This document shows, in pieces, positions 16,381-28,144 of a stretch of 64,000 nt of DNA. Location: positions 251,342-315,341 of the forward strand of contig MTLY02000001.1 in assembly GCA_002011035.2 (NCBI GenBank). Direction: 5' to 3'. The position numbers and the translations under genes are program-made. The notes beneath the pieces were generated by a model. That model did not search any database. It saw only the letters and a program-made list of their open reading frames with translations, and had not been told where the DNA came from. The stretch's first letter is position 1. Each line of letters starts with the position of its first letter. The stretch comes from Candidatus Hecatella orcuttiae (lineage in GTDB: Archaea; Thermoproteota; Bathyarchaeia; Hecatellales; Hecatellaceae).

Positions 16381-17058
16381 CTAATCTAAGAGGCGCTTCA
16401 ACAGTTTTCTCGGATTATCCCTGACAACCACTAAGGCATCCTTCCAGCTCAGCCCAGCTCCTAAGGCAACCTGATAGGCGTCTTTTTGGGTGATGAAATC
16501 TTCAGGGCTGTGAAGGTCGGTGTTAACAACCAAGTTCGCTCCGGTTTCCAAACTCTGCTTGGCCACAAAGCCGTTGGTTAAGCAGTGTCCCTTCCGGGTT
16601 GTGAGTTCTAGGTATACTCCGTTACCCGAAGCCTTCTCGCACTCTTTCTCGCTGATCATTCCCGGGTGGGCGAGGATGTCCACTTCCCCGGATTCCACGG
16701 CTGCCAAGTTTGTGCCCCGGGTTACAGGCTCCACCAAAGTTTCCCCGTGTGCTATGACCAGTTTGGCCCCCAGCCTTCTGGCCTTGGAGGCTAAAACCCC
16801 TATGGCTTTGGGTGGAACGTGGGTGAGCTCCACACCTGGGTAGAAACGGGTTTTCCCCGCGTATTTTTCCAGCTCCTCGGCCATGTTTGTCAGCTTGGTT
16901 ACGACGGATTCCAAGTTAGCTGAGTCCACATGGTCTGTCACAGCCACAGCTTCGTAGCCCATGTTTTCAGCCCGCCTCAAAATTTCGCTGGGCAGTAGCT
17001 CTCCGTCGCTGAGAAGGGAATGGGTGTGAAATTCAATCCTTCTGCCAAGGGTCTTCAT
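16381..17058 (-). CDS. PHP-domain phosphohydrolase, candidate histidinol phosphatase
   Basis: A 225-residue PHP-superfamily protein with the metal-binding motifs FHTHSLLSDGELL, VTDHVDSAN, VIAHGE, DILAHPGMI and VNTDLHSPEDF. The ATG at 17058 overlaps the hisI stop as ATGA, so it is translationally coupled to the his operon. The operon otherwise has no histidinol-phosphatase, and bacterial HisK/HisJ phosphatases belong to the PHP family, which makes this the best HisN-equivalent. It is shorter than HisK (about 265 residues), and assignment from context alone leaves other phosphoester substrates possible. Confidence 0.78.
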   Translation of the reverse strand: MKTLGRRIEFHTHSLLSDGELLPSEILRRAENMGYEAVAVTDHVDSANLESVVTKLTNMAEELEKYAGKTRFYPGVELTHVPPKAIGVLASKARRLGAKLVIAHGETLVEPVTRGTNLAAVESGEVDILAHPGMISEKECEKASGNGVYLELTTRKGHCLTNGFVAKQSLETGANLVVNTDLHSPEDFITQKDAYQVALGAGLSWKDALVVVRDNPRKLLKRLLD

Positions 17059-17447
17059 TTCAGGTTTTCCTCCTCCTTGAAGGTTGCTCCTTCCAGTTTC
17101 CGGTAGAAACACGTCCTGTAGCCCCTGTGACATGCTCCGCCTATTTGGCGGACTTTAACCAGCAGGGCGTCGAAGTCGCAGTCTACATAGAGTTCCTTGA
17201 GAAACTGGTAGTGGCCTGAGGTTTCACCCTTCTGCCAAAGCCTATTTCTCTCCGTGCTCCAGTAGTACATCATGCCCGTGGTGAGGGTTTTCTCCACAGC
17301 CTCCCTGTTGGCGGAGGCCACCATCAACACTTCTCCGGTGGAGGAATCCTGCACCACCACCGTCACCCGGCCGTTGTGCCGGTAGTTAAGCTGGCCTGCA
17401 ACCTTCCTAGCCTCCTCTGGGCCTAAGGGCAGATTTGACACCTTCAT
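17055..17447 (-). CDS. hisI: phosphoribosyl-AMP cyclohydrolase
   Basis: Third step of histidine synthesis: zinc-dependent opening of the adenine ring of PR-AMP. The 130-residue single-domain enzyme shows YYWSTERNRLWQKGETSGH and the zinc/metal ligands in VDCDFDALL and GACHRGYRTCFYR. The pyrophosphohydrolase activity is encoded separately by hisE. The ATG start overlaps the hisH stop. Confidence 0.96.
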   Translation of the reverse strand: MKVSNLPLGPEEARKVAGQLNYRHNGRVTVVVQDSSTGEVLMVASANREAVEKTLTTGMMYYWSTERNRLWQKGETSGHYQFLKELYVDCDFDALLVKVRQIGGACHRGYRTCFYRKLEGATFKEEENLK

Positions 17448-18058
17448 TCTCCGATCGACCTGACGAAGTTTTTGAGAAGCCTTAAGCCTTGCGCTCCGCT
17501 TTTTTCCGGGTGGAACTGGGTTCCGTAGAGGCTTCCCGAAACCACCACCGACGGGAAAACCGTCCCGTATTCAGTGGTGGCTAGAACGGCTGCTTCCTCC
17601 GCTTCCCCCACGTAGTAGGAGTGAACGAAGTAAAAGTAGTCTCCGTCGTTTATGCCTTCTAGGAAGCCGTGGGCTTTAACCGTCTTCACGGTGTTCCAGC
17701 CCATGTGGGGGACTTTAACACCTTGGGGTAGAGGTACTACTTTTCCCCTGAGGAAGCCTAAGCCTTTAGACCATCCTCCTTCTAGGCTTTCGCTGAAGAA
17801 CAGCTCCATTCCCAAGCATATCCCGAGGAGAGGGAGACCTCTTTCCACGGCTTTTTTAAGCTGGGGCAGGCGGGGGGTGAGAAACTCAACGGCAGGCCGG
17901 TAGGCGCCCACGCCGGGGAAGACCACGGCGTCCCCCTCTAGGGCGTCCTCTACCCTCGAGGTGATGAAGGGCTGGGCTCCAACTTTCTCCAAGGCCTTCC
18001 GGATGCTCATCAGGTTTCCCACCCCGTAGTCCACCACCGCTATCCTAGGCGGCTTCAA
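17444..18058 (-). CDS. hisH: imidazole glycerol phosphate synthase, glutaminase subunit
   Basis: Supplies ammonia to HisF. The start is set at TTG 18058, two bases after the hisE stop, giving KPPRIAVVDYGVGNL and 204 residues, the family's usual size; an upstream open extension overlaps hisE and lacks homology. The GATase motifs are VFPGVGAY, LGICLGMELFF with the nucleophile Cys, and TQFHPEKSG with the catalytic His and Glu. The GGAGGAGG run inside the end of hisE is a strong ribosome-binding site. Confidence 0.95.
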   Translation of the reverse strand: MKPPRIAVVDYGVGNLMSIRKALEKVGAQPFITSRVEDALEGDAVVFPGVGAYRPAVEFLTPRLPQLKKAVERGLPLLGICLGMELFFSESLEGGWSKGLGFLRGKVVPLPQGVKVPHMGWNTVKTVKAHGFLEGINDGDYFYFVHSYYVGEAEEAAVLATTEYGTVFPSVVVSGSLYGTQFHPEKSGAQGLRLLKNFVRSIGE

Positions 18059-18060
18059 CC

Positions 18061-18345
18061 TTATCGCCTCCTCCTCCGGAGTTCTTGAAGTAGTTCCTCC
18101 AGTTTTATTCCTTTGAAGACCAGTAGCACCCAAGTGTGGAACACTAGGTCGGCGGCTTCATGAACTATCTCCTGCCTTTCTCCTCCCCGAGCCGCCTTCA
18201 CCAGCTCTTGGGCTTCCTCCTTCACCTTGCCCAGAACCTTGTCCACTCCTCCTTTTAAGAGGCTTGAAACATAGGAGCCGGGTTTGGGCCTGTGCCTCCG
18301 GTCTTCGATGACCCGGTAGACTTCGGATAGAACCTCCAAACTCAC
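18061..18345 (-). CDS. hisE: phosphoribosyl-ATP pyrophosphohydrolase
   Basis: Hydrolyses PR-ATP to PR-AMP. The 94-residue MazG-like helical enzyme contains LGKVKEEAQELVKAA and EIVHEAADLVFHTWVLL, holding the acidic Mg2+-binding residues. GTG start overlaps the hisD stop. It ends in an Arg-rich tail encoded by AGG codons that double as the ribosome-binding site for hisH. Confidence 0.95.
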   Translation of the reverse strand: MSLEVLSEVYRVIEDRRHRPKPGSYVSSLLKGGVDKVLGKVKEEAQELVKAARGGERQEIVHEAADLVFHTWVLLVFKGIKLEELLQELRRRRR

Positions 18346-19655
18346 CGACGTCGGCCTCCCTTTCGCCCTTTGAATCTTTTCTCCACCGCCAGCCCATGGG
18401 CTGGAAGCCCTTCCGCCTCAGAGAAAGCCTTCACCGTCTCCCTCAGCCTCTTCAGTCCTTGGGGAGTGAGGTACTCCACGTTGATGGCTTTCATGAAGTC
18501 GTAGACCCAGAGGCCTGAACTGAACCGCGCTACTCCTCCCGTTGGGAGCACATGGTTTGACCCTACAGCGTAATCCACTGCCGGAGTGGGCGTGGAGGCT
18601 CCAAGGGAAACGGATCCCGCGTTGGTGATCATGGAAACAAACTTCTCCGGCTTCCTGCAGAGGACCTCCAAATGCTCCGGGGCGAAGGTGTTGATGAACT
18701 CAGCTGCCTGAGCCGGGCTGTCCGCTAGGAGGAGGACTCCTGACCTTTCCAAAGCCTCTTCCAACACGGTTTTCCTCAGCCCTTGAGAGGCGTAGGTTCG
18801 AAGTTTTTCCCCCACCTTCGCAGCCAATCTCCCGTCTGTAGTGACCAAGATGGGTACGGCAAGGGGGTCGTGCTCCGCCTGGGAAATCAGGTCCACCGCC
18901 ACAAGTTCAGGGTCAGCGGAGCTGTCGGCGAAGACCACCAGCTCCGTGGGGCCGGCGGGGAAGTCGATTCCCACCTCTCCGTAGACCAGCATCTTGGCCG
19001 CGGTGACGTAGACGTTTCCCGGCCCTAGGATCTTGTCAACCTTTGGAATCGTCTGGGTGCCGTAGGCCATGGCACCGACAGCCTGCACTCCACCCACCTT
19101 GAAGACCTCCTTCACCCCAGCTACATCCAAAGCCACAAGGGTGGCTGGGTTGATTCTCCCGTCTGGGGCAGGAGGCGTGCAGGCGACCAGCCTCCGAACT
19201 CCCGCCACCTTGGCTGGGATGGCCAACATGAGGGCGGTGGAAGGATAGGCGGCTTGGCCTCCGGGAACGTAGAGCCCCACCGTTCCCAGAGGACGGAAGA
19301 CCTGCCGAACGTAGACTCCTGCGGTTTTCTTGAGGACTTTGCTCTTGGGCAGCTGTTTCCTGTGGACCTCCCGGATGTTGGACGCAGCCTTTTTTATCGC
19401 CCTGAGCATTCTGCCTCCCACTTTTCCGTAGGCTTTGGCGACTTCGAAGGGCTTAACCTGCAGCTCCTCCGCCGTGATTTCAACTCTGTCGTAGAGTTTC
19501 GCATATTCGACGACGGCCTCGTCGCCTTTCAGCTTCACCGCTTGGAGGATTTCCTCCACCTTGCCTTTTACGAGTTGAAGGCTGAACCTGTTTCTCTGGA
19601 TGAGTCTGCTCAAAGCCTCAGGGCTTAGGTCTTTTATTCGAACAGGCCCTAGCAT
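18342..19655 (-). CDS. hisD: histidinol dehydrogenase
   Basis: Zinc-dependent NAD+ oxidation of histidinol to histidine. The 437-residue protein carries LYVPGGQAAYPST, GPGNVYVTAAK, GPTELVVFADSSADP, SQAEHDPLAVP and the catalytic FAPEHLEVLC region. It starts at ATG, five bases after hisF. All expected zinc and catalytic His/Glu motifs are present. Confidence 0.97.
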   Translation of the reverse strand: MLGPVRIKDLSPEALSRLIQRNRFSLQLVKGKVEEILQAVKLKGDEAVVEYAKLYDRVEITAEELQVKPFEVAKAYGKVGGRMLRAIKKAASNIREVHRKQLPKSKVLKKTAGVYVRQVFRPLGTVGLYVPGGQAAYPSTALMLAIPAKVAGVRRLVACTPPAPDGRINPATLVALDVAGVKEVFKVGGVQAVGAMAYGTQTIPKVDKILGPGNVYVTAAKMLVYGEVGIDFPAGPTELVVFADSSADPELVAVDLISQAEHDPLAVPILVTTDGRLAAKVGEKLRTYASQGLRKTVLEEALERSGVLLLADSPAQAAEFINTFAPEHLEVLCRKPEKFVSMITNAGSVSLGASTPTPAVDYAVGSNHVLPTGGVARFSSGLWVYDFMKAINVEYLTPQGLKRLRETVKAFSEAEGLPAHGLAVEKRFKGRKGGRRR

Positions 19656-19660
19656 AGCGG

Positions 19661-20428
19661 CTACCCCCTAGGCGGCCTCACGGGGACACCTAGCTTCATC
19701 AACTCCCTCTTTATGTCCGCCACGGTATACTGCCGGTAGTGGAACACGGAGGCCGCTAGGGCGGCGTCGGCTTTTCCCTCAGTTAAGGCTTGGTAGATGT
19801 GCTGGGGTTCCCCAGCGCCTCCGGAGGCTATGACGGGAATGTTCACCGCTTCGGCGACGGCTCTGGTAAGTTTTATGTCGTAGCCAACTCTCGTCCCGTC
19901 GGCGTCCATGCTGGTGAGAAGGATTTCCCCGGCTCCCAGCCTTTCCACTTTCTTAGCCCACTCCACCGCGTTGAGGCCTGTGGGAGTGCGTCCTCCGGTG
20001 ATGTAAACTTCCCAGAAGCTCTCCCTCACATAGAGGGCGTCGATGGCTACCACGATGCACTGGCTTCCGAATCTTTCCGCTCCCTTCCTCACTATTTCAG
20101 GGTCTCTGACCGCGGCGGTGTTGATGGAAACCTTGTCGGCTCCCGCCTCCAAGAGCGCTTCCATGTCTTCCAAACTCCGAACCCCGCCTCCCACCGTGAA
20201 AGGTATGAAGAGGTTTTCCGCCGTCTTCTTCACCACGTTGACCATGGTGGCTCTTCCCTCCGGAGAGGCGCCAACGTCCAAGAAAACCAGCTCGTCGGCT
20301 CCCTGCTCATCGTACATCAGAGCCAAGGCTGGAGGGTCTCCGGCATGGCGGAGTCCCTTGAAGTGGATGCCTTTGACGACGACTCCGTTGAGGACATCGA
20401 GGCATGGGATTATGCGCTTGGTTAACGT
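19661..20428 (-). CDS. hisF: imidazole glycerol phosphate synthase, cyclase subunit; apparent ACG start
   Basis: Cyclises PRFAR with ammonia from HisH to IGP and AICAR. From 20428 the frame reads [15 protein letters not shown], the conserved HisF N-terminus with ACG where the initiator ATG normally stands, giving 255 residues. The first conventional start in frame, a TTG about 34 codons later, would delete the first beta strand and catalytic Asp11. ACG directly follows the hisB TAG, and a GGGGGT element lies seven bases upstream. The second catalytic Asp is in VVAIDAL. Coding is certain; only the initiator is unusual. Confidence 0.93.
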
Positions 20429-21019
20429 CTACAAGACCCCCTTGAGGCTGGGCGGCTTTTTCTCCTCCGCCTCCCTCAACCTCGCTGCCTCTGCCAATGC
20501 TCGGCCTAAGGCCTTGAAGGCAGCTTCAGCCTTGTGGTGACTGTTTAAGCCGCGGATGGCTACGATATGCAGGTTGAAGCGGCCTCCTTCCGCCAGCGAC
20601 CTGAAAAAGTGGTCCACCATCTCGGAGGAAAGCTCCCCCAGCTTCGGCTCCTTGAACCTCAGGTTGGAGCGGTAGTAGGGTCTCCCTGAAAGGTCTATGG
20701 AGACCATTATCAGGGCGTCGTCCATGGGTAGGACGGCGCTTCCGAAGCGGTTGATTCCCTTCTTGTCGCCGAGGGCCTTATCCAAGGCCTGCCCTAGGAC
20801 CAAGCCTAAGTCCTCCACCATATGGTGGTCGTCGTAGACGGGGCCTTTTTCTTCGGCTGAGGCTTCGAGGGTGAAGGAGCCGTGGAAGGCCATGGACCTA
20901 AGCATGTGCTCTAAGAAAGGCTTGCCCACCTGCAGCTTAACCTCTCCGGGCTTGTCGAGGTTGACCGCTACCTTGACGTAGGTTTCCTCCGTCTTCCGTT
21001 CAACCTTAGCCTGCCGCAT
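20429..21019 (-). CDS. hisB: imidazoleglycerol-phosphate dehydratase
   Basis: Manganese-dependent dehydration of IGP to imidazole-acetol phosphate. The 196-residue single-function enzyme has [44 protein letters not shown] and [17 protein letters not shown] with the metal-binding histidines. It starts inside the end of hisA and ends TAG immediately before hisF, in the same frame as hisF. Confidence 0.96.
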
Positions 21020-21761
21020 TCCTAACTATCTCCTTCGCTTCCTTTAACGTAAAGACTCCCTCATATAAGGCCCTTCCAACCACAGCGCCCCAGACTCCCG
21101 CCTTTGCCAAGTGGAGGAGGTCTTGAAGGGAGGACACTCCACCCGCGTAGATGACGGGTTTATCCGTAGAGTCTACAACCTTTCTAACCAACCCCGTATC
21201 CAGTCCGCTTAACGTCCCTTCCACATTCACATCCGTGTAGAGAAAAGCCGCCACCTCCTGCCGGGTGAAGAACCGTATGAGGTTGAAGGGGGAACCTGCT
21301 GCCTCTGCAGTCCAGCCTCTGGTCACCACCCTCCCCCCTCTGGAGTCTAAGGCCACGATAACCCGGTCGCCGCCTACACGGTTTAGGAAGACTGAAATCG
21401 CCTGAGGTCTTTCCACGGCGACGGTTCCCAGGATAACCCACCGAGCCCCCGCCTCCACCAGTTCCCGGGCGTCCTCCACCCGCCTGATGCCGCCGCCTAC
21501 TTCCACAGGGATGCGGAGGCTTCTGATGATTTTTTTCACGGTTTCCCTGTTTTTCCTGCTGCCTGTGAAGGCCGCGTCTAGATCTACCACGTGGAGAATT
21601 TCCGCTCCTTCCGCTTCCCAAGCCTCAGCTACTTTCAAGGGATCGTCCGAGATCTCCCGCCCTGTTCCGGGTTTTCCTTGGACAAGTTTGACGCATTTTC
21701 CATCTTGGATGTCGACGGAGGGTATCACCTTCATCGGCTGGGGGCGCTTCCCTTCTTTCAC
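21006..21761 (-). CDS. hisA: ProFAR isomerase
   Basis: Isomerises ProFAR to PRFAR. A half-repeat TIM barrel with the catalytic Asp in VIPSVDIQDGKCVKL, VVDLDAAF, EVGGGIRRVED and VIVALDSRGG. The GTG at 21761 overlaps the hisG stop as GTGA and adds nine residues before the family-like MKVIPSVDIQ; ATG 21734 is the alternative start. HisA rather than TrpF is indicated by the barrel motifs and operon position. Confidence 0.95.
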   Translation of the reverse strand: MKEGKRPQPMKVIPSVDIQDGKCVKLVQGKPGTGREISDDPLKVAEAWEAEGAEILHVVDLDAAFTGSRKNRETVKKIIRSLRIPVEVGGGIRRVEDARELVEAGARWVILGTVAVERPQAISVFLNRVGGDRVIVALDSRGGRVVTRGWTAEAAGSPFNLIRFFTRQEVAAFLYTDVNVEGTLSGLDTGLVRKVVDSTDKPVIYAGGVSSLQDLLHLAKAGVWGAVVGRALYEGVFTLKEAKEIVRNAAG

Positions 21762-22621
21762 GGGACAACCCTCTCCACGGGTAGGACTATGATGTCTCTG
21801 GCTCCAGCCGTCTTAACCGAGCTTATGACATGGGGGATTTCCCCCTCCTCGACAACAGAGTACACCTCCCACATGGGGACGGGAGCCTCAACCTTCGCCA
21901 ACGTGGGGCCGCCCATGGAAGGGAGGACACCTAGAACCCGCTGCAGAGCTTCTTCGGGAACGTTCATCATCAGGAGCTTCTTTTTTCTAGCCATTAAAAC
22001 ACTTCGGAGAGCGGTGGTGATTTCCTTTATCTTCTCTCCTTTCTCCGCCAAGGCCTTCTTGTTGACTATTAGCCTAGCCGAGGACCTCAGAACCTCCTCC
22101 ACAATCCTCAGACCGTGAATTTTCAAGGTGGCCCCGGTGTCGACGATGTCTAACACAGCCTCTGCCACATTCATAAGGGGCGTGATCTCTACGGCTCCTG
22201 AGACCTTCACTATCTTAGCCTTCATACCTTTAACCTTGAGGTAGTTGCCGGCTATGGAAGGATATTTGGTGGCAATTCTAGTCTGAGCGGTTAGGTTTCG
22301 GGGAGACTCTATCCCTGACTCTTCAGGGGCGGCTAGAACTATCCGGCAGCCTCCGAACTCCAAGTCAAGAAGCTCAGCCACTTCCGCTCCGCTTTCCACG
22401 ACGTAATCGTAACCTGTGACGCCCAAGTCTACTGCTCCTCCTTCCACCAACGTCGGTATGTCCGAGGCTCTGGCTAGGACTATGGAAAGCCAAGGAATCA
22501 CCGTGGATAGGTAAAGAGAGCGTGTTTTCCAGTTTGATGGCGCTAGGCCTGCTTTCGTTAAGAGTCTGACGGAGGGCTTGTGAAGGCGGCCTTTGTTGGG
22601 TATGGCGATGGTTATTCGGAT
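21758..22621 (-). CDS. hisG: ATP phosphoribosyltransferase, long form; start codon anomalous
   Basis: First step of histidine synthesis, feedback-controlled in homologues. The N-terminus IRITIAIPNKGRLHKPSVR is coded from about 22621, but an in-frame TGA precedes it at 22627-22625 and no ATG, GTG or TTG occurs before 22501. ATC at 22621 (seven bases after GGG) could initiate; alternatively ATG at 22628 would read into frame if the run of five A's after it were four. The 287 residues include the phosphoribosyl loop DIVDTGATL and a C-terminal HisG_C/ACT-like regulatory domain (about residues 210-287). First gene of the his operon. Confidence 0.9.
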   Translation of the reverse strand: MRITIAIPNKGRLHKPSVRLLTKAGLAPSNWKTRSLYLSTVIPWLSIVLARASDIPTLVEGGAVDLGVTGYDYVVESGAEVAELLDLEFGGCRIVLAAPEESGIESPRNLTAQTRIATKYPSIAGNYLKVKGMKAKIVKVSGAVEITPLMNVAEAVLDIVDTGATLKIHGLRIVEEVLRSSARLIVNKKALAEKGEKIKEITTALRSVLMARKKKLLMMNVPEEALQRVLGVLPSMGGPTLAKVEAPVPMWEVYSVVEEGEIPHVISSVKTAGARDIIVLPVERVVP

Positions 22622-22648
22622 TTTTCATCCCTTCTTGTGGGAAATTTG

Positions 22649-22662
22649 TGGGTTTAAACCCA
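22649..22662. promoter_or_regulatory. 14-bp perfect palindrome in the hisG / AbrB-ACT divergent promoter
   Basis: TGGGTTTAAACCCA is a perfect inverted repeat lying between the two divergent starts and touching the minus-strand TATA-like sequence. It is well placed to be an operator for a dimeric DNA-binding protein such as the neighbouring AbrB-family regulator. The binding partner is inference. Confidence 0.5.
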
Positions 22663-22686
22663 TAATATACACATAAGTATATAAAC
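22662..22686. promoter_or_regulatory. back-to-back TATA boxes for hisG (minus) and the AbrB-ACT gene (plus)
   Basis: On the plus strand AGTATATAAAC at 22676-22686 lies 30-40 bases before the GTG of the regulator gene. On the minus strand TGTATATTATG at 22661-22671 is placed to drive the his operon with a leader of about 20 bases. Confidence 0.65.
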
Positions 22687-22715: not shown

Positions 22716-23132
22716 GTGAGAGCTACGCGCATCTCAGAAATCATCCGCATAGACAACCGAGGAAGAGTGATCATCCCCGCTTCCATCCGAGAAGCCTTCG
22801 GCCTGAGAGAAGAAGCCTATGTAATGTTGATGGCGGACTTGGAAAGCCAAGAAGTGAAATTCATCCCCTTCGCCGACCCCGACGCCAAGCTCTTCGAAGT
22901 AAAACTCTCCCTCACCGACGTGCGGGGGGCGCTGGCCAAGGCAGCCATGAAAATGGCGGAGCTGGGAGTAGACCTCCTCTCCACCCAATCCAGAACCCTG
23001 CAAAGGGGAAAGTCCGCCGAGTGGCATGCCATCGTCGACCTCTCCAAGTGCAAGCTTACGCTGGGCGAGCTTAAGCGCAAGCTGGTGGAAGAGGGAGCTG
23101 CTAAACACGTGGAGATAAAACAGTTCGGGTGA
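22716..23132 (+). CDS. AbrB/SpoVT-type DNA-binding protein fused to an ACT domain
   Basis: A 138-residue protein. Residues 1-50 form a swapped-hairpin AbrB/MazE DNA-binding domain (IIRIDNRGRVIIPASIREAFG). Residues about 58-138 look like an ACT domain (VKLSLTDVRGALAKAAMKMAE then STQSRTLQRGKSAEWHAIVD), the module that binds amino acids in regulators and enzymes. It is divergent from the his operon and precedes the lysW operon, so an amino-acid-responsive repressor of one or both is a natural inference. GTG start; TATA box at 22676. Ligand and operator unproven. Confidence 0.85.
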   Translation: MRATRISEIIRIDNRGRVIIPASIREAFGLREEAYVMLMADLESQEVKFIPFADPDAKLFEVKLSLTDVRGALAKAAMKMAELGVDLLSTQSRTLQRGKSAEWHAIVDLSKCKLTLGELKRKLVEEGAAKHVEIKQFG

Positions 23133-23217: not shown

Positions 23218-23391
23218 ATGAAAGTCAAATGCCCTGAATGCGGCGCGGAATTCGACGCTCCCGACGACGTGATAGTAGGGGAAATCGTCAGCTGCCCGGA
23301 CTGCGGCTTAGAGCTTGAAGTCAGCAGCATCCAGTCTGGAAAAGTCGACGTTAAAATTGTCAGAATTTCCGGCGAAGACTGGGGGGAATGA
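23218..23391 (+). CDS. lysW: LysW amino-group carrier protein
   Basis: A 57-residue acidic zinc-finger carrier for lysine (and in many archaea ornithine) biosynthesis. It has two CxxC knuckles, CPECGAEFD and CPDCGLELE, and the diagnostic C-terminal EDWGE, whose terminal Glu is ligated to alpha-aminoadipate or glutamate. ATG at 23218. The TGA stop is immediately followed, in the same frame, by lysX coding sequence. Confidence 0.95.
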   Translation: MKVKCPECGAEFDAPDDVIVGEIVSCPDCGLELEVSSIQSGKVDVKIVRISGEDWGE

Positions 23392-23404
23392 TCAGTCACC
23401 TCCA
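23380..23404 (+). other. predicted RNA hairpin spanning the lysW/lysX junction
   Basis: In the transcript UGGGGG (23380-23385) can pair with CCUCCA (23399-23404) including one G-U pair, enclosing a 13-base loop that contains the lysW stop codon. The 3' arm UCACCUCC matches the anti-Shine-Dalgarno core of 16S rRNA. It ends at an in-frame AUA that could start lysX. A function in coupling the two genes is inference. Confidence 0.35.
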
Positions 23405-24249
23405 TAGGCATCCTCTACGATCAGATCCGTTGGGAAGAAAAAGCCATAATCGAAACCGCCAAGTCTAGGGGAACACCTGTTAAGCTCTTAGACTCGAAAT
23501 CGATGTTCTTCGAACTGGGAGCCCGGGAGCGCGGAGGAGAAAAATTCGCCGACATAATTCTCCAACGCTGCGTAAGCTATTTCAGAAACCTTCACCTCAC
23601 CGCCCTCCTAGAGAAAAGAGGCTACACAGTCGTTAACCCTTACAAGGTTACCCAGCTCTGCGGCAACAAGCTTCTGACAACCCTCGCCTTGACAAAGGCT
23701 AAGATACCGACCCCTAAAACCTACGTAGCCTTCACCAAAGAGAGCGCGTTGGAAGCCTTGGATAAAATGGGCTACCCGGCGATGTTGAAGCCTGTGGTGG
23801 GAAGCTGGGGGAGACTCATCATCCCCTTGAAGGACAGGGAGACAGCGGGAGCCGTCTTGGAGGAAAGGGAGTACATGTTCCCCCTCTACCAAGTTTACTA
23901 CCTTCAGGAAATGGTCAAAAGGCCGCCGAGGGACATCAGGGTCTTCGTCATCGGAGACGAGGCAGTGACAGGCATCTACCGTTATTCCTTCTTGGACATC
24001 AAGACCAACATCGCCCGGGGAGGAAAAGCTGAACCTTGCCGCATAACTCCTGAGCTTCAAGAGCTAAGCCTCAAGGCAGCGGAGGCTGTGGGCAGCGGAA
24101 TTCTCGGAGTTGACATGATGGAAACCGATGAGGGAATCGTGGTACATGAAATTAACCACACCATCGAATTTCAGGCAACCGCCACGGTGACGAAGGTCAA
24201 CATACCTAAATACATCGTAGGCTATTTGCTTAGAAAAGCCAGAAAATAG
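23404..24249 (+). CDS. lysX: LysW ligase (LysX/ArgX family); no canonical start codon
   Basis: ATP-grasp ligase joining alpha-aminoadipate (and possibly glutamate) to the LysW C-terminal Glu. The frame encodes GILYDQIRWEEKAI, the usual LysX N-terminus, but the 37 codons between the lysW TGA and the ATG at 23503 contain no ATG, GTG or TTG. AUA at 23404 is adopted provisionally; GTC at 23395 is eight bases after the GGGGGG run. ATP-grasp motifs include MLKPVVGSWGRLI and VHEINHTIEF. Starting at 23503 would leave a truncated 248-residue protein lacking the first strand. Confidence 0.9.
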   Translation: MGILYDQIRWEEKAIIETAKSRGTPVKLLDSKSMFFELGARERGGEKFADIILQRCVSYFRNLHLTALLEKRGYTVVNPYKVTQLCGNKLLTTLALTKAKIPTPKTYVAFTKESALEALDKMGYPAMLKPVVGSWGRLIIPLKDRETAGAVLEEREYMFPLYQVYYLQEMVKRPPRDIRVFVIGDEAVTGIYRYSFLDIKTNIARGGKAEPCRITPELQELSLKAAEAVGSGILGVDMMETDEGIVVHEINHTIEFQATATVTKVNIPKYIVGYLLRKARK

Positions 24250-24270
24250 CTGCAGGCGAGGGCTCAGCCT

Positions 24271-25329
24271 ATGCTTCGAGTAGGCGTCATCGGAGGCTCA
24301 GGTTACACCGGAGGAGAACTTCTCAGGCTGCTTTTGGGCCACCCCCAAGTTGAAATAGCTCAGACAACCTCCAGAGAATACGGCGGCGAATACGTTTTCC
24401 GAGTTCACCCCAACCTCAGAGGGCTGACCAGCCTCCAGTTCGCCAAACCAGACTTGGAGAAGACGGTGAAGGAATGCGACCTTGTCTTCACGGCGACCCC
24501 CCACGGAGTTTCCTCCAAGCTTGTTCCCCGGCTGCTGGAGGCGGGGTTGAAGGTGATAGACTTGAGCGCAGATTTCAGGCTGAAGAATCCTGAGGGCTAC
24601 CCCCAATGGTACGGCTGGAGTCACCCTCACCCCGAACTGCTTCAGAAAGCCGTCTACGGCGTTCCTGAACTTCACCGGAGCGACATAGGGAAAGCTCAGC
24701 TTGTCGCTTGCCCGGGCTGCATGGCTGTGGCCAGCATTCTGGCTTTAGCCCCAGCGGCCAAAGAAAGGCTTTTCGAAGAGGACAAGGTTGTGGTCGACGT
24801 TAAGATCGGGTCTTCAGGAGCCGGAGCCAAACCCTCCCGGTCAACCCACCATGCTGAGAGAGCCGGCGTCATCCGGCCTTACAAGCCCACAGGTCACAGG
24901 CATACGGCGGAGATCGAGCAGGAGTTGAACTGGGTTGCAGGCTCCGGGGCGGTGAAGATTTCCATGTCCGCCCACGCCGTCAACGTTGTGAGAGGCATCC
25001 TCGCCACCGCGCATCTTTTCCTGAAAGAGAAGATAGGGCTGGCGGAGGTTTGGAAAGCCTACCGGGGGTTCTACCAGAACGAGCCCTTCATCCGCTTGGT
25101 CAGGGATAAGAAAGGCCTCTACAAGCTTCCCGACCCCAAAACCGTCATCGGCTCCAACTTCTGCGATATAGGCTTCGACTTGGATAAGCATGTCAACAGG
25201 CTGGTGGTCTTGGGGGCTATCGACAACCTGATGAAGGGAGCCGCCGGCATAGCCGTTCAAAACCTTAACCTGATGATGGGCTGGGATGAAAGAACCGGGT
25301 TACTGCCGCCTGCCCTCTACCCTGTCTGA
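24271..25329 (+). CDS. lysY: LysW-aminoadipate 6-phosphate / LysW-glutamyl-phosphate reductase
   Basis: ArgC-family NADPH-dependent reductase acting on carrier-bound acyl phosphate. The 352-residue protein has the Rossmann motif VGVIGGSGYTGGELLRLLL, the catalytic Cys in VACPGCMAVASILAL, KIGSSGAGAKPS, and the His-containing PTGHRHTAEIEQEL. ATG 24271, 22 bases after lysX. The LysW context favours lysY over N-acetyl-based argC. Confidence 0.95.
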   Translation: MLRVGVIGGSGYTGGELLRLLLGHPQVEIAQTTSREYGGEYVFRVHPNLRGLTSLQFAKPDLEKTVKECDLVFTATPHGVSSKLVPRLLEAGLKVIDLSADFRLKNPEGYPQWYGWSHPHPELLQKAVYGVPELHRSDIGKAQLVACPGCMAVASILALAPAAKERLFEEDKVVVDVKIGSSGAGAKPSRSTHHAERAGVIRPYKPTGHRHTAEIEQELNWVAGSGAVKISMSAHAVNVVRGILATAHLFLKEKIGLAEVWKAYRGFYQNEPFIRLVRDKKGLYKLPDPKTVIGSNFCDIGFDLDKHVNRLVVLGAIDNLMKGAAGIAVQNLNLMMGWDERTGLLPPALYPV

Positions 25330-25427
25330 CGGCTTCCCTACCCTGCTCCCGGTCATTTTTGCCTCGAGGTTGAAGGCTGAGTTTTCAGCTATAGGTTTAA
25401 GAAGACGGCTTCATTTTGTTCTGGTTC

Positions 25428-26042
25428 ATGAAGAAGAAGGGTTCCTACCGCGGCAATGCAATGGATAGACTAGTGAGGATAGCTGAGGAGGGGGGAGCCG
25501 CGGAGGTCAAGGTCATCAACGCCAAGGACATCGTTGTGGATAAGAGGGTTAGGATGAAATGTGCCATTCCCCCATGCAACCAGTACGGGAAAAACCTGAT
25601 GTGCCCGCCTTACGTCATGTCCGTGGAAGAGTTCACCCAAATCCTCGGTAAATACAGAAAAGCCTTGCTGGTTCAGCTTGAAACTAACACCGACTCCTCA
25701 GACAAAGCGGACGCGCCCCTCACAGGAGAGCTTATAGAAACGCTAGAGGAAAAAACAGGCCTAGCAGAATGGTCGCTGAAGCTCCATAGGCTGATAAACC
25801 TCCTTGAAACCGAAGCTTTCAAGCTAGGGTTCCCCTTCGCCACAGGCTTCACTTGCGGACACTGCCGCCTCTGTGAAGAATGCGTGCCCCCCGGGAACCC
25901 TTGCCGAAAACCCTTTGAGGCTAGGCCTTCCATGGAGGCCATGGGCATCGACGTCTCCAAGACCTGTGAAAAAGCTGGCATTCCGGTTTCCTTTTCTTCA
26001 AACCGAGCCATAAAGTTGACAGGGCTGGTCTTGCTTTATTAG
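25428..26042 (+). CDS. DUF2284 cysteine-rich metal-binding protein
   Basis: About 204 residues with conserved cysteines in MKCAIPPCNQYGKNLMCPP and TCGHCRLCEECVPPGNPC, the pattern of the predicted metal-binding DUF2284 family. ATG 25428 is chosen; TTG 25416 and ATG 25461 are alternatives, the latter giving MDRLVRIAEEGG. A TATA-like TATAGGTTTAAG lies just upstream at about 25390. It sits between lysY and lysZ, which suggests a link to the pathway, but no biochemical role is established. The cysteines could hold an Fe-S cluster or zinc. Confidence 0.8.
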   Translation: MKKKGSYRGNAMDRLVRIAEEGGAAEVKVINAKDIVVDKRVRMKCAIPPCNQYGKNLMCPPYVMSVEEFTQILGKYRKALLVQLETNTDSSDKADAPLTGELIETLEEKTGLAEWSLKLHRLINLLETEAFKLGFPFATGFTCGHCRLCEECVPPGNPCRKPFEARPSMEAMGIDVSKTCEKAGIPVSFSSNRAIKLTGLVLLY

Positions 26043-26094
26043 CTGCGAAGCTTCTGACTGAAAGCTAAAATACGCCTTCAGACTTTTCTAAAAG

Positions 26095-26120
26095 GAACCG
26101 CGAATTACCAGCGACGGTTC
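26095..26120 (+). promoter_or_regulatory. inverted repeat in the lysZ leader
   Basis: GAACCG (26095-26100) and CGGTTC (26115-26120) can form a 6-bp stem with a 14-base loop just before the AGGAAGG ribosome-binding site of lysZ. A TATA-like GCTAAAATACG is upstream near 26065. It may be an operator or a leader hairpin. Confidence 0.35.
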
Positions 26121-26136
26121 TCAGGAAGGTTTCAGA

Positions 26137-26955
26137 TTGGCTGACAGGTTCCTTGTGGTAAAGGTGGGGGGCAGCCTTCTCAAATCAGGTTTTCCTCCCA
26201 CGCTACTGAAAGACCTGAAAAGCGCGGCCCTAAACCATCGGCTCACCCTCGTCCACGGAGGGGCGGCTCTGGTTACGGAGACCGCCCAGAAGATGGGGAA
26301 AGAGCAGAAGTTCATCGTTTCTCCCGATGGAATGAAAAGCAGGTACACCGACAGGGAGACCATGGAAGTCTACACCATGGTCATGGCGGGTAAAATCAAC
26401 AAGCAGGTCGTGGCTTTTCTGCAGAGCGGAGGGGTTAACGCCATAGGCCTCAGCGGGGCGGACGGCCAGCTTCTCAGAGCTTCCAGAAAGAAAAAACTCA
26501 TCATCTTGGATGAAAGGGGAAGAAAAGTGGCTATTGAAGGCGGCTACACGGGGAAAATCGAAGAGGTGAACCCCCAGCCTCTCCGCTGCCTGATGGACTT
26601 GGGCTACATGCCTGTGGTGGCCCCCATAGCCGTGGACGATGAGTTCCAGCTTCTAAACGTAGACAGCGACAGGGCTGCCGCCTACATAGCCAAAGCCCTG
26701 AAGGCTGACTGCCTCATCCTCTGCACCGATGTGGAGGGACTTATCCTCAACGGCGCTCTCGTCAAAAGGCTGAAGCTGGAAGAGGCTCGGGAAAACCTCC
26801 CCAAGATCGGGCATGGTATGAGAAAGAAGATTTACGCTGCGGTGGAAGCCTTAGAAGGAGGCGTCAGAGAAGTGGTGGTGACGAAGGGCGCCTTGGAAAC
26901 CCCCCTAACCTCAGCTTTAAACCATGAGGCGGGAACCCTCATTGTCCCTCAGTAG
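26137..26955 (+). CDS. lysZ: LysW-aminoadipate / LysW-glutamate kinase
   Basis: ArgB-family amino-acid kinase phosphorylating the carrier-bound substrate. The 272-residue protein shows VVKVGGSLLKSG, LVHGGAALVTE, AIGLSGADGQLL and LNVDSDRAAAYIAKAL. TTG start with AGGAAGG eight bases upstream. Its end overlaps the lysJ start by 32 bases, indicating tight coupling. Confidence 0.95.
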   Translation: MADRFLVVKVGGSLLKSGFPPTLLKDLKSAALNHRLTLVHGGAALVTETAQKMGKEQKFIVSPDGMKSRYTDRETMEVYTMVMAGKINKQVVAFLQSGGVNAIGLSGADGQLLRASRKKKLIILDERGRKVAIEGGYTGKIEEVNPQPLRCLMDLGYMPVVAPIAVDDEFQLLNVDSDRAAAYIAKALKADCLILCTDVEGLILNGALVKRLKLEEARENLPKIGHGMRKKIYAAVEALEGGVREVVVTKGALETPLTSALNHEAGTLIVPQ

Positions 26956-28144
26956 AGATGAGATAATCCGCTGGGAAAACAGCCAGCTGGCCGACGTCTA
27001 CCACCGGAGAAACCTCGCCGTAGTCCGGGGTAAGGACGCCCTCATCTGGGATGCGGATGGAAAGCAGTACATCGACTGCATGGCCGGCTTCGGCGCTGCT
27101 TTCATAGGCCACTGCAACGAAAAAGTGGTAAAGGCCCTTCAAACCCAAGCTGAGAAACTCATAGCATGCCACGGGTCCCTCTACAGTGAGGCTAGAGCTC
27201 AGCTTCTCCGAAAATTGGCCTCCATAGCTCCGAAGGGGTTGGACAAAGTTTTTCTGTCCAACAGCGGCTCCGAAGCCGTGGAGCTGGCTTTAAAGGTTTC
27301 AAGAAAGTTCACGGGAAAGAAAGAGTTCATAGCCATGATGAGAAGCTACCATGGGAAAACCATGGGCTCCCTCTCCGTCACCTGGAACGCCAAATACCGA
27401 GCTCCCTTCGAGCCGCTCATTCCCCAGGTGAAATTTGTTCCCTATGGGCGGTCGGAGGAAGTCAGGAAAGCCCTGACGGCTGACACAGCCGCCATCATCG
27501 TGGAGCCAGTTCAGGGAGAAGGCGGAGTCTACGTGGCTCCGGAAGGCTACCTGAAGGAACTCAGGGAGCTGGCCGACCGCCAAGGGGCACTGCTGATCTT
27601 CGATGAAATTCAAACAGGCTTCGGGAGAACTGGAAAGATGTTCGCCCTCGAACACTGGAATGTCACCCCCGACATCCTGTGTCTGGCAAAGGCAGCGGGC
27701 AGCGGTGTCCCCATAGGCATCACCCTAGCTGGCGAGGAGGTCATGGGCTCGCTGAAGATAGGGGAACACTCCGCCACCTTTGGGGGAAACCCCCTCTCCT
27801 GCATTGCAACCGTCGCCACCATCGACGTGCTGGTGGAAGGACGACTCTGGGAGGCAGCAGCTCGCTTAGGGAAGCACTTCTCAAGCCGTCTAAGAGAGCT
27901 GGGTGAAAGACATAGAATTGTAAGGGAGGTCCGAGGCTTAGGCTTGATGCTGGGGATGGAGCTTCGCTTCGACGTCTTGGACATCCTTAACAAGATGCTG
28001 GAGAAGGGGGTTCTGATAATGAACGCGGGGGTGAAGACTCTCCGTTTTCTCCCTCCCTGCGTAATCTCCCCAAGCCAATTGGATACCGTCGTCGAGAAGC
28101 TGGAAGAATGTCTGAGGGAAAAAGAAGCATCCATAGCTAGATAA
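26924..28144 (+). CDS. lysJ: LysW-aminoadipate semialdehyde / glutamate semialdehyde aminotransferase
   Basis: Class III PLP aminotransferase of 406 residues making carrier-bound lysine or ornithine. Motifs are FLSNSGSEAVELALK, the Asp of LIFDEIQTGFGRTG, the PLP lysine in CLAKAAGSGVPIG, and FGGNPLSC. Gene order lysW-X-Y-Z-J matches other archaeal LysW systems. The final carrier-releasing hydrolase LysK is not in the window. Confidence 0.94.
   Translation: MRREPSLSLSRDEIIRWENSQLADVYHRRNLAVVRGKDALIWDADGKQYIDCMAGFGAAFIGHCNEKVVKALQTQAEKLIACHGSLYSEARAQLLRKLASIAPKGLDKVFLSNSGSEAVELALKVSRKFTGKKEFIAMMRSYHGKTMGSLSVTWNAKYRAPFEPLIPQVKFVPYGRSEEVRKALTADTAAIIVEPVQGEGGVYVAPEGYLKELRELADRQGALLIFDEIQTGFGRTGKMFALEHWNVTPDILCLAKAAGSGVPIGITLAGEEVMGSLKIGEHSATFGGNPLSCIATVATIDVLVEGRLWEAAARLGKHFSSRLRELGERHRIVREVRGLGLMLGMELRFDVLDILNKMLEKGVLIMNAGVKTLRFLPPCVISPSQLDTVVEKLEECLREKEASIAR

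Follow-up and report, generated by a model that had tools for sequence, protein, structure and literature searches.

The AbrB-ACT protein encoded beside the histidine operon of this archaeon is probably a dedicated local regulator of that operon, repressing it with histidine as the most likely effector, a role that has not been described before. The computed elements of this reading are the fold of the protein, its gene neighborhood, a predicted operator with its genome-wide uniqueness and the spacing of that operator from a TATA element. The window, that is, the whole 64,000-nucleotide stretch of DNA that was analyzed, contains the following genes in this region.

16381..21761, minus strand: hisA, hisB, hisF, hisD, hisE, hisH, hisI and a PHP-type histidinol-phosphate phosphatase, the remaining genes of the his operon
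21758..22628, minus strand: hisG (long form, HisG_C present), which opens the divergent his operon
22716..23132, plus strand: putative AbrB-ACT regulator, 138 aa, GTG start, with AbrB/SpoVT at residues ~5-52 and ACT at ~58-137
23218..28144, plus strand: LysW/LysX/LysY/LysZ/LysJ operon, the downstream neighbor, whose linkage is not kept beyond the family

The original prediction placed the AbrB-ACT gene between a divergent his operon and a downstream LysW operon, and both placements are seen, with identities from NCBIfam. These models assigned the his genes of the window, LysW and LysX, the exception being hisE, which was named by its position and neighborhood labels only.

Several of these genes have unusual starts. 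The ATG of hisG in relatives (22626-22628 in the window) is out of frame here, with an A5 run, ATGAAAAATCC, and the HisG frame of the window (21758-22501) opens straight after a TGA, with no ATG, GTG or TTG before 22501. This may reflect either a one-base assembly indel or real decay or odd initiation. At the start position of hisF (~20428) the window reads ACG; the codon there is ATG or TTG in almost every relative and GCG in one. LysX (~23391) is without ATG, GTG or TTG near the conserved start, which is ATG in most relatives. That the three neighboring genes hisG, hisF and LysX are without a canonical start may be due either to sequence quality or to near-cognate initiation.

The N-terminus of AbrB-ACT is matched at residues 10-39 by TIGR01439, the curated looped-hinge AbrB model, with 30.9 bits, above the cut-off of 28.3. 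PF04014 scored 20.2 bits against the N-terminus, under its cut-off of 24.7, and the match of PF02381 (MraZ) was also sub-threshold. In the profile searches no Lrp/AsnC or HTH model matched the protein, nor did PF01371, the TrpR-family HTH of HisR type, and an AbrB domain stands in the place of a ribbon-helix-helix N-terminus such as that of NikR. The DNA-binding fold is thus AbrB rather than Lrp/AsnC, as had been proposed. For the C-terminal part, the ACT model PF01842 gave a weak match to residues 62-123 (15.5 bits, cut-off 27). An AlphaFold monomer, calculated from an input of 16 homologues (the window protein and database orthologues), has a mean pLDDT of 91.5 and a pTM of 0.77. Its elements (E59-66 H72-82 E86-96 E100-108 H116-125 E131-136) follow the βαββαβ order of an ACT domain over residues 59-136, and in Foldseek its top PDB matches carry ACT domains (serine-bound PGDH and the stand-alone ACT protein 1zpv); NikR and SpoVT were also among the PDB matches. 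The architecture first read from the letters, AbrB joined to ACT, is therefore confirmed, since TIGR01439 exceeds its cut-off and the ACT fold, the absence of which from residues 58-138 would have spoken against the proposal, was found there. A DxPGxL loop is family-wide in the ACT domain; the window protein reads DVRG where the family has DxPG.

AbrB-ACT aligns end to end with NCBIfam NF006352/PRK08577 ("hypothetical protein"), scoring 128.5 bits over residues 5-137. This misses the curated cut-off of 140, which the orthologues in G039, G047 and G169 pass. With a threshold of E≤1e-15, an orthologue is present in 23 of the 257 genomes of the class. Beyond the class, the protein occurs in other Thermoproteota, Heimdallarchaeota, Brockarchaeota, Methanomethylicota, Thermofilaceae, Pyrodictiaceae and Diapherotrites.

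Divergent his genes adjoin AbrB-ACT at every one of the 23 class orthologues (257 genomes). The first divergent gene at these loci is hisZ, hisG or hisC (hisZ and hisC assigned via NCBIfam), and it is hisA in G001. The linkage is repeated in other families of Thermoproteota (L079, L083, L087 and, among the loci listed, L138, L140, L141 and L143-L146) and in Brockarchaeota (L063). In Diapherotrites (L066) AbrB-ACT lies upstream of hisG and is co-directional with it, and in Thermofilaceae (L064) it is divergent from an amino-acid ABC transporter whose binding protein is of the SBP_bac_3 type. On the AbrB-ACT tree the distribution of his linkage needs 3 changes, compared with 16.8 when the labels are shuffled. 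In two genomes (G004 and G006) a gene of 400-470 aa is found between hisG with its operator and AbrB-ACT (L028 2117-3337, L029 513-1922); by eye, this intervening gene resembles a glycoside hydrolase.

HisG is present in 126 of the 257 class genomes. About 100 class genomes have HisG and are without AbrB-ACT, so the regulator is not required for the pathway. The best 21 HisG matches all come from genomes that possess the regulator, which indicates that it accompanies one lineage of the his operon. Elsewhere in the genome (G000:C3:191538-192050) lies a second HisG, a 316-aa frame of a different type; G001 has HisG only of this second type, and hisA still adjoins AbrB-ACT there. Homologues located away from amino-acid operons had been named as a finding that would weaken the idea of an amino-acid sensor. 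The neighborhood survey revealed that homologues of the his-linked subtype sit at amino-acid operons, and that a Cys-type subfamily, described below, is located away from his genes.

Two features in the region between hisG and AbrB-ACT bear on the regulation of these genes.

22637..22674, no strand: predicted operator GTGGG-N6-GTGGG-N6-CCCAT-N6-CACAT, 38 bp, conserved across loci
22678..22684, no strand: inferred shared TATA element TATATAA, its centre 25.5 nt from the operator centre

The four half-sites of the predicted operator (22637-22641, 22648-22652, 22659-22663 and 22670-22674) have an exact 11-bp pitch, one helical turn, and the consensus of the divergent intergenic regions is GTGGG-N6-GTGGG-N6-CCCAY-N6-CMCAY. 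The palindrome TGGGTTTAAACCCA at 22649-22662, originally put forward for DNA-binding assays, is present but is not the whole operator; as an entire operator this 14-bp sequence was rejected, being the centre of the 38-bp four-half-site array. A shuffle control of the operator is descriptive only, because the motif was taken from the same sequences, and the independent test is provided by uniqueness in the genome, a class-wide scan for the core and the distribution of the regulator. The three-half-site core occurs with 0 mismatches once in the 1.75-Mb genome, and every other site has at least 2 mismatches. A slightly relaxed core was found in 20 of the 257 class genomes, and the reversed-pattern control gave 0. 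The regulator is present in 18 of these 20 core-bearing genomes and the core in 18 of the 23 regulator genomes (Fisher p=3e-21, a value that overstates independence because the genomes are related); the reversed-control scan and the single site in the 1.75-Mb genome do not depend on this p-value. Where a gene has been inserted (G004, G006; L028, L029), the operator and TATA remain beside hisG. The operator of G007 is a variant with N8 in the middle, only CCCAC-N6-CCCAC remains of it in G008 and G014, and the intergenic region of G260, in which AbrB-ACT is his-linked, has no recognizable operator. A phylum-wide pattern scan yielded scattered extra matches at about twice the level of the reversed control, and no further regulon is therefore claimed.

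We regard it as exceedingly improbable that this conserved stretch between the genes acts as an RNA leader, such as an attenuator or a T-box-like element, and not as an operator bound by protein. Half-sites 1 and 2 would fall within the his leader, as the RNA reading would allow, but the half-sites straddle the predicted transcription start site (TSS) and the sequence strictly co-occurs with the regulator gene. The best Rfam score was 22.9 bits against a gathering threshold of 43.7 and lay inside the regulator gene, so that no credible match was obtained, and an RNA element was rejected with no Rfam family matched.

The distribution of the operator and of the linkages also bears on the ligand, which had been suggested to be histidine, lysine or arginine. 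In the window AbrB-ACT is co-directional with lysW and lies 85 bp upstream of it, and three further genomes of this family likewise have it ahead of lysW, as would be expected if it controlled the LysW (lysine/arginine) operon. We consider such control very improbable. The LysW operon is downstream of AbrB-ACT only in the window, G004, G006 and G007, all of one family, and this linkage is missing elsewhere; in L033 and L052 lys genes are downstream of AbrB-ACT but on the opposite strand. Further, a pattern scan detected one operator in the whole genome and none upstream of lysW. Control of LysW/arginine by AbrB-ACT was rejected because the linkage is restricted to the family and the operator is absent there. 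Of the suggested ligands, histidine is thus favored by the invariant his linkage in the class, and lysine and arginine are not.

The geometry of the promoter suggests how a protein bound at the operator may act. Across loci (n=19) the distance from the operator centre to the TATA centre is 24.3±1.8 nt. Transcription in archaea begins roughly 25 nt away from the TATA box, which places the expected his start site at the centre of the operator, so that a bound protein should block his transcription. By inspection, GAAAGTTTATATA on the minus strand is a plausible BRE-TATA for his. Since the TATA element lies between both genes, the gene for AbrB-ACT itself is probably controlled too.

Contact with DNA, the oligomeric state, histidine as ligand and repression rather than activation are what we infer beyond these computed results, and the mechanism may be pictured as follows. 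The AbrB domains of dimers, or more likely of a dimer of dimers, would contact the four half-sites with their TGGG cores; an array of two direct and two inverted half-sites, each offset by one helical turn from the next, would fit a dimer of dimers. The predicted operator would extend from the TATA side to just ahead of the his start codon, centered on the predicted TSS. The effector, most likely L-histidine, would bind the ACT domain at the dimer interface, and the histidine-bound protein would block recruitment or escape of RNA polymerase at the his promoter. It is unlikely, but deserves consideration, that the same local regulator responds to another effector (a different amino acid, an intermediate of the pathway or a signal related to purines) or is an activator that histidine releases. 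Amino acids are the usual ligands of ACT domains and the neighbor in L064 is an amino-acid transporter, both of which argue against an effector other than histidine, and an operator centered on the predicted TSS fits repression. These considerations must be set against the facts that a sequence does not disclose ligand specificity and that archaeal Lrp-type regulators work both ways, with varied effectors (PMC2995911). As a whole, the fold, the conserved neighborhood and the conserved predicted operator support the proposal of an amino-acid-sensing AbrB-ACT transcription regulator. Given the ACT domain, L-histidine is its likely co-repressor, by analogy with the functionally similar bacterial HisR.

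Two residues distinguish subfamilies of AbrB-ACT. S92-R93-T94 and A101-E102-W103 are kept by all his-linked members except L087 and L116, which deviate at 93, and L066, which deviates at 94 and 102; Ser92 and Trp103 are present in all three. In a hyperthermophile clade (L068-L082), Cys at 92 and 103 replaces Ser92 and Trp103. These Cys-type proteins constitute one supported clade on the tree (98/90) and are not his-linked, and HisG is absent altogether from many of their genomes. The SRT/AEW-type proteins of Heimdallarchaeota and Methanomethylicota are also not his-linked, and L019, L020 and L024 belong to a distant group, at 20-23% identity, that lacks the SRT/AEW signature. Judged by register, the two Cys residues would face each other across the β2-β3 hairpin, suggesting a different signal for the hyperthermophile subfamily, for example metal or redox. 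In several hyperthermophile orthologues (L068-L082) a DUF72 gene follows AbrB-ACT; the neighbors of these orthologues (DUF72, PRTase and others) present no amino-acid theme save for the L064 transporter. We tentatively raise the possibility that AbrB-ACT proteins are an undescribed archaeal class, with a Ser/Trp subtype that is a histidine repressor and a Cys/Cys subtype that is another sensor, both reading helically phased TGGG half-sites. If this were true, Bathyarchaeia and several further lineages of archaea would have the Ser/Trp subtype as their histidine repressor, and the hyperthermophile Cys/Cys subtype would sense a different signal (metal, redox or thiol).

As far as the literature searched shows, the function proposed here, the operator and the link to his are new, the family being known as hypothetical. 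The search on his control named bacterial HisR, T-boxes and attenuators and found no archaeal his regulator, and no paper joining AbrB, an ACT domain and archaea was found. A putative function is thus assigned to an uncharacterized family, and a precise predicted operator is offered for in vitro work. With one site per genome, the system would be a clean model for feedback control of one operon. AbrB plus ACT would be an unusual pair for an amino-acid-responsive one-component regulator, a task that in archaea usually falls to HTH-RAM proteins.

Among known systems, NF006352/PRK08577 has the same AbrB-ACT layout over its full length and is a family with no assigned function, in which the his-linked subtype carries Ser92/Trp103 and the hyperthermophile subtype Cys. 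HisR, a member of the TrpR family in Firmicutes, is a dedicated regulator of the his operon that is often beside it, and in R. gnavus it needs L-histidine for DNA binding (PMC9413887). AbrB-ACT would resemble HisR as a dedicated his-operon regulator that often adjoins the operon, whereas HisR is bacterial, has a TrpR-type HTH and a 20-bp palindrome, and is without an AbrB or ACT domain (PMC9413887). NikR, a Foldseek match, likewise joins a small beta-type DNA-binding domain to an ACT-like sensor, but its N-terminus is ribbon-helix-helix, it senses nickel and it has no AbrB domain. SpoVT of B. subtilis, the best AbrB match of the AbrB-ACT family profile among solved structures, shares the plan of an AbrB N-terminal domain with a C-terminal sensor domain; that domain is a GAF in SpoVT and an ACT in AbrB-ACT. 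MraZ belongs with AbrB-ACT to the AbrB/MazE superfamily and differs in its tandem AbrB-like domains, the lack of ACT and its targets, which are cell-division genes; E. coli MraZ reportedly binds direct repeats of TGGG that are spaced by roughly one turn. Finally, Lrp/AsnC proteins such as LysM and FL11 are archaeal, sense amino acids, act on biosynthesis genes and have a RAM sensor that resembles ACT (PMC2995911), but their DNA-binding domain is a helix-turn-helix, in place of which AbrB-ACT has AbrB.
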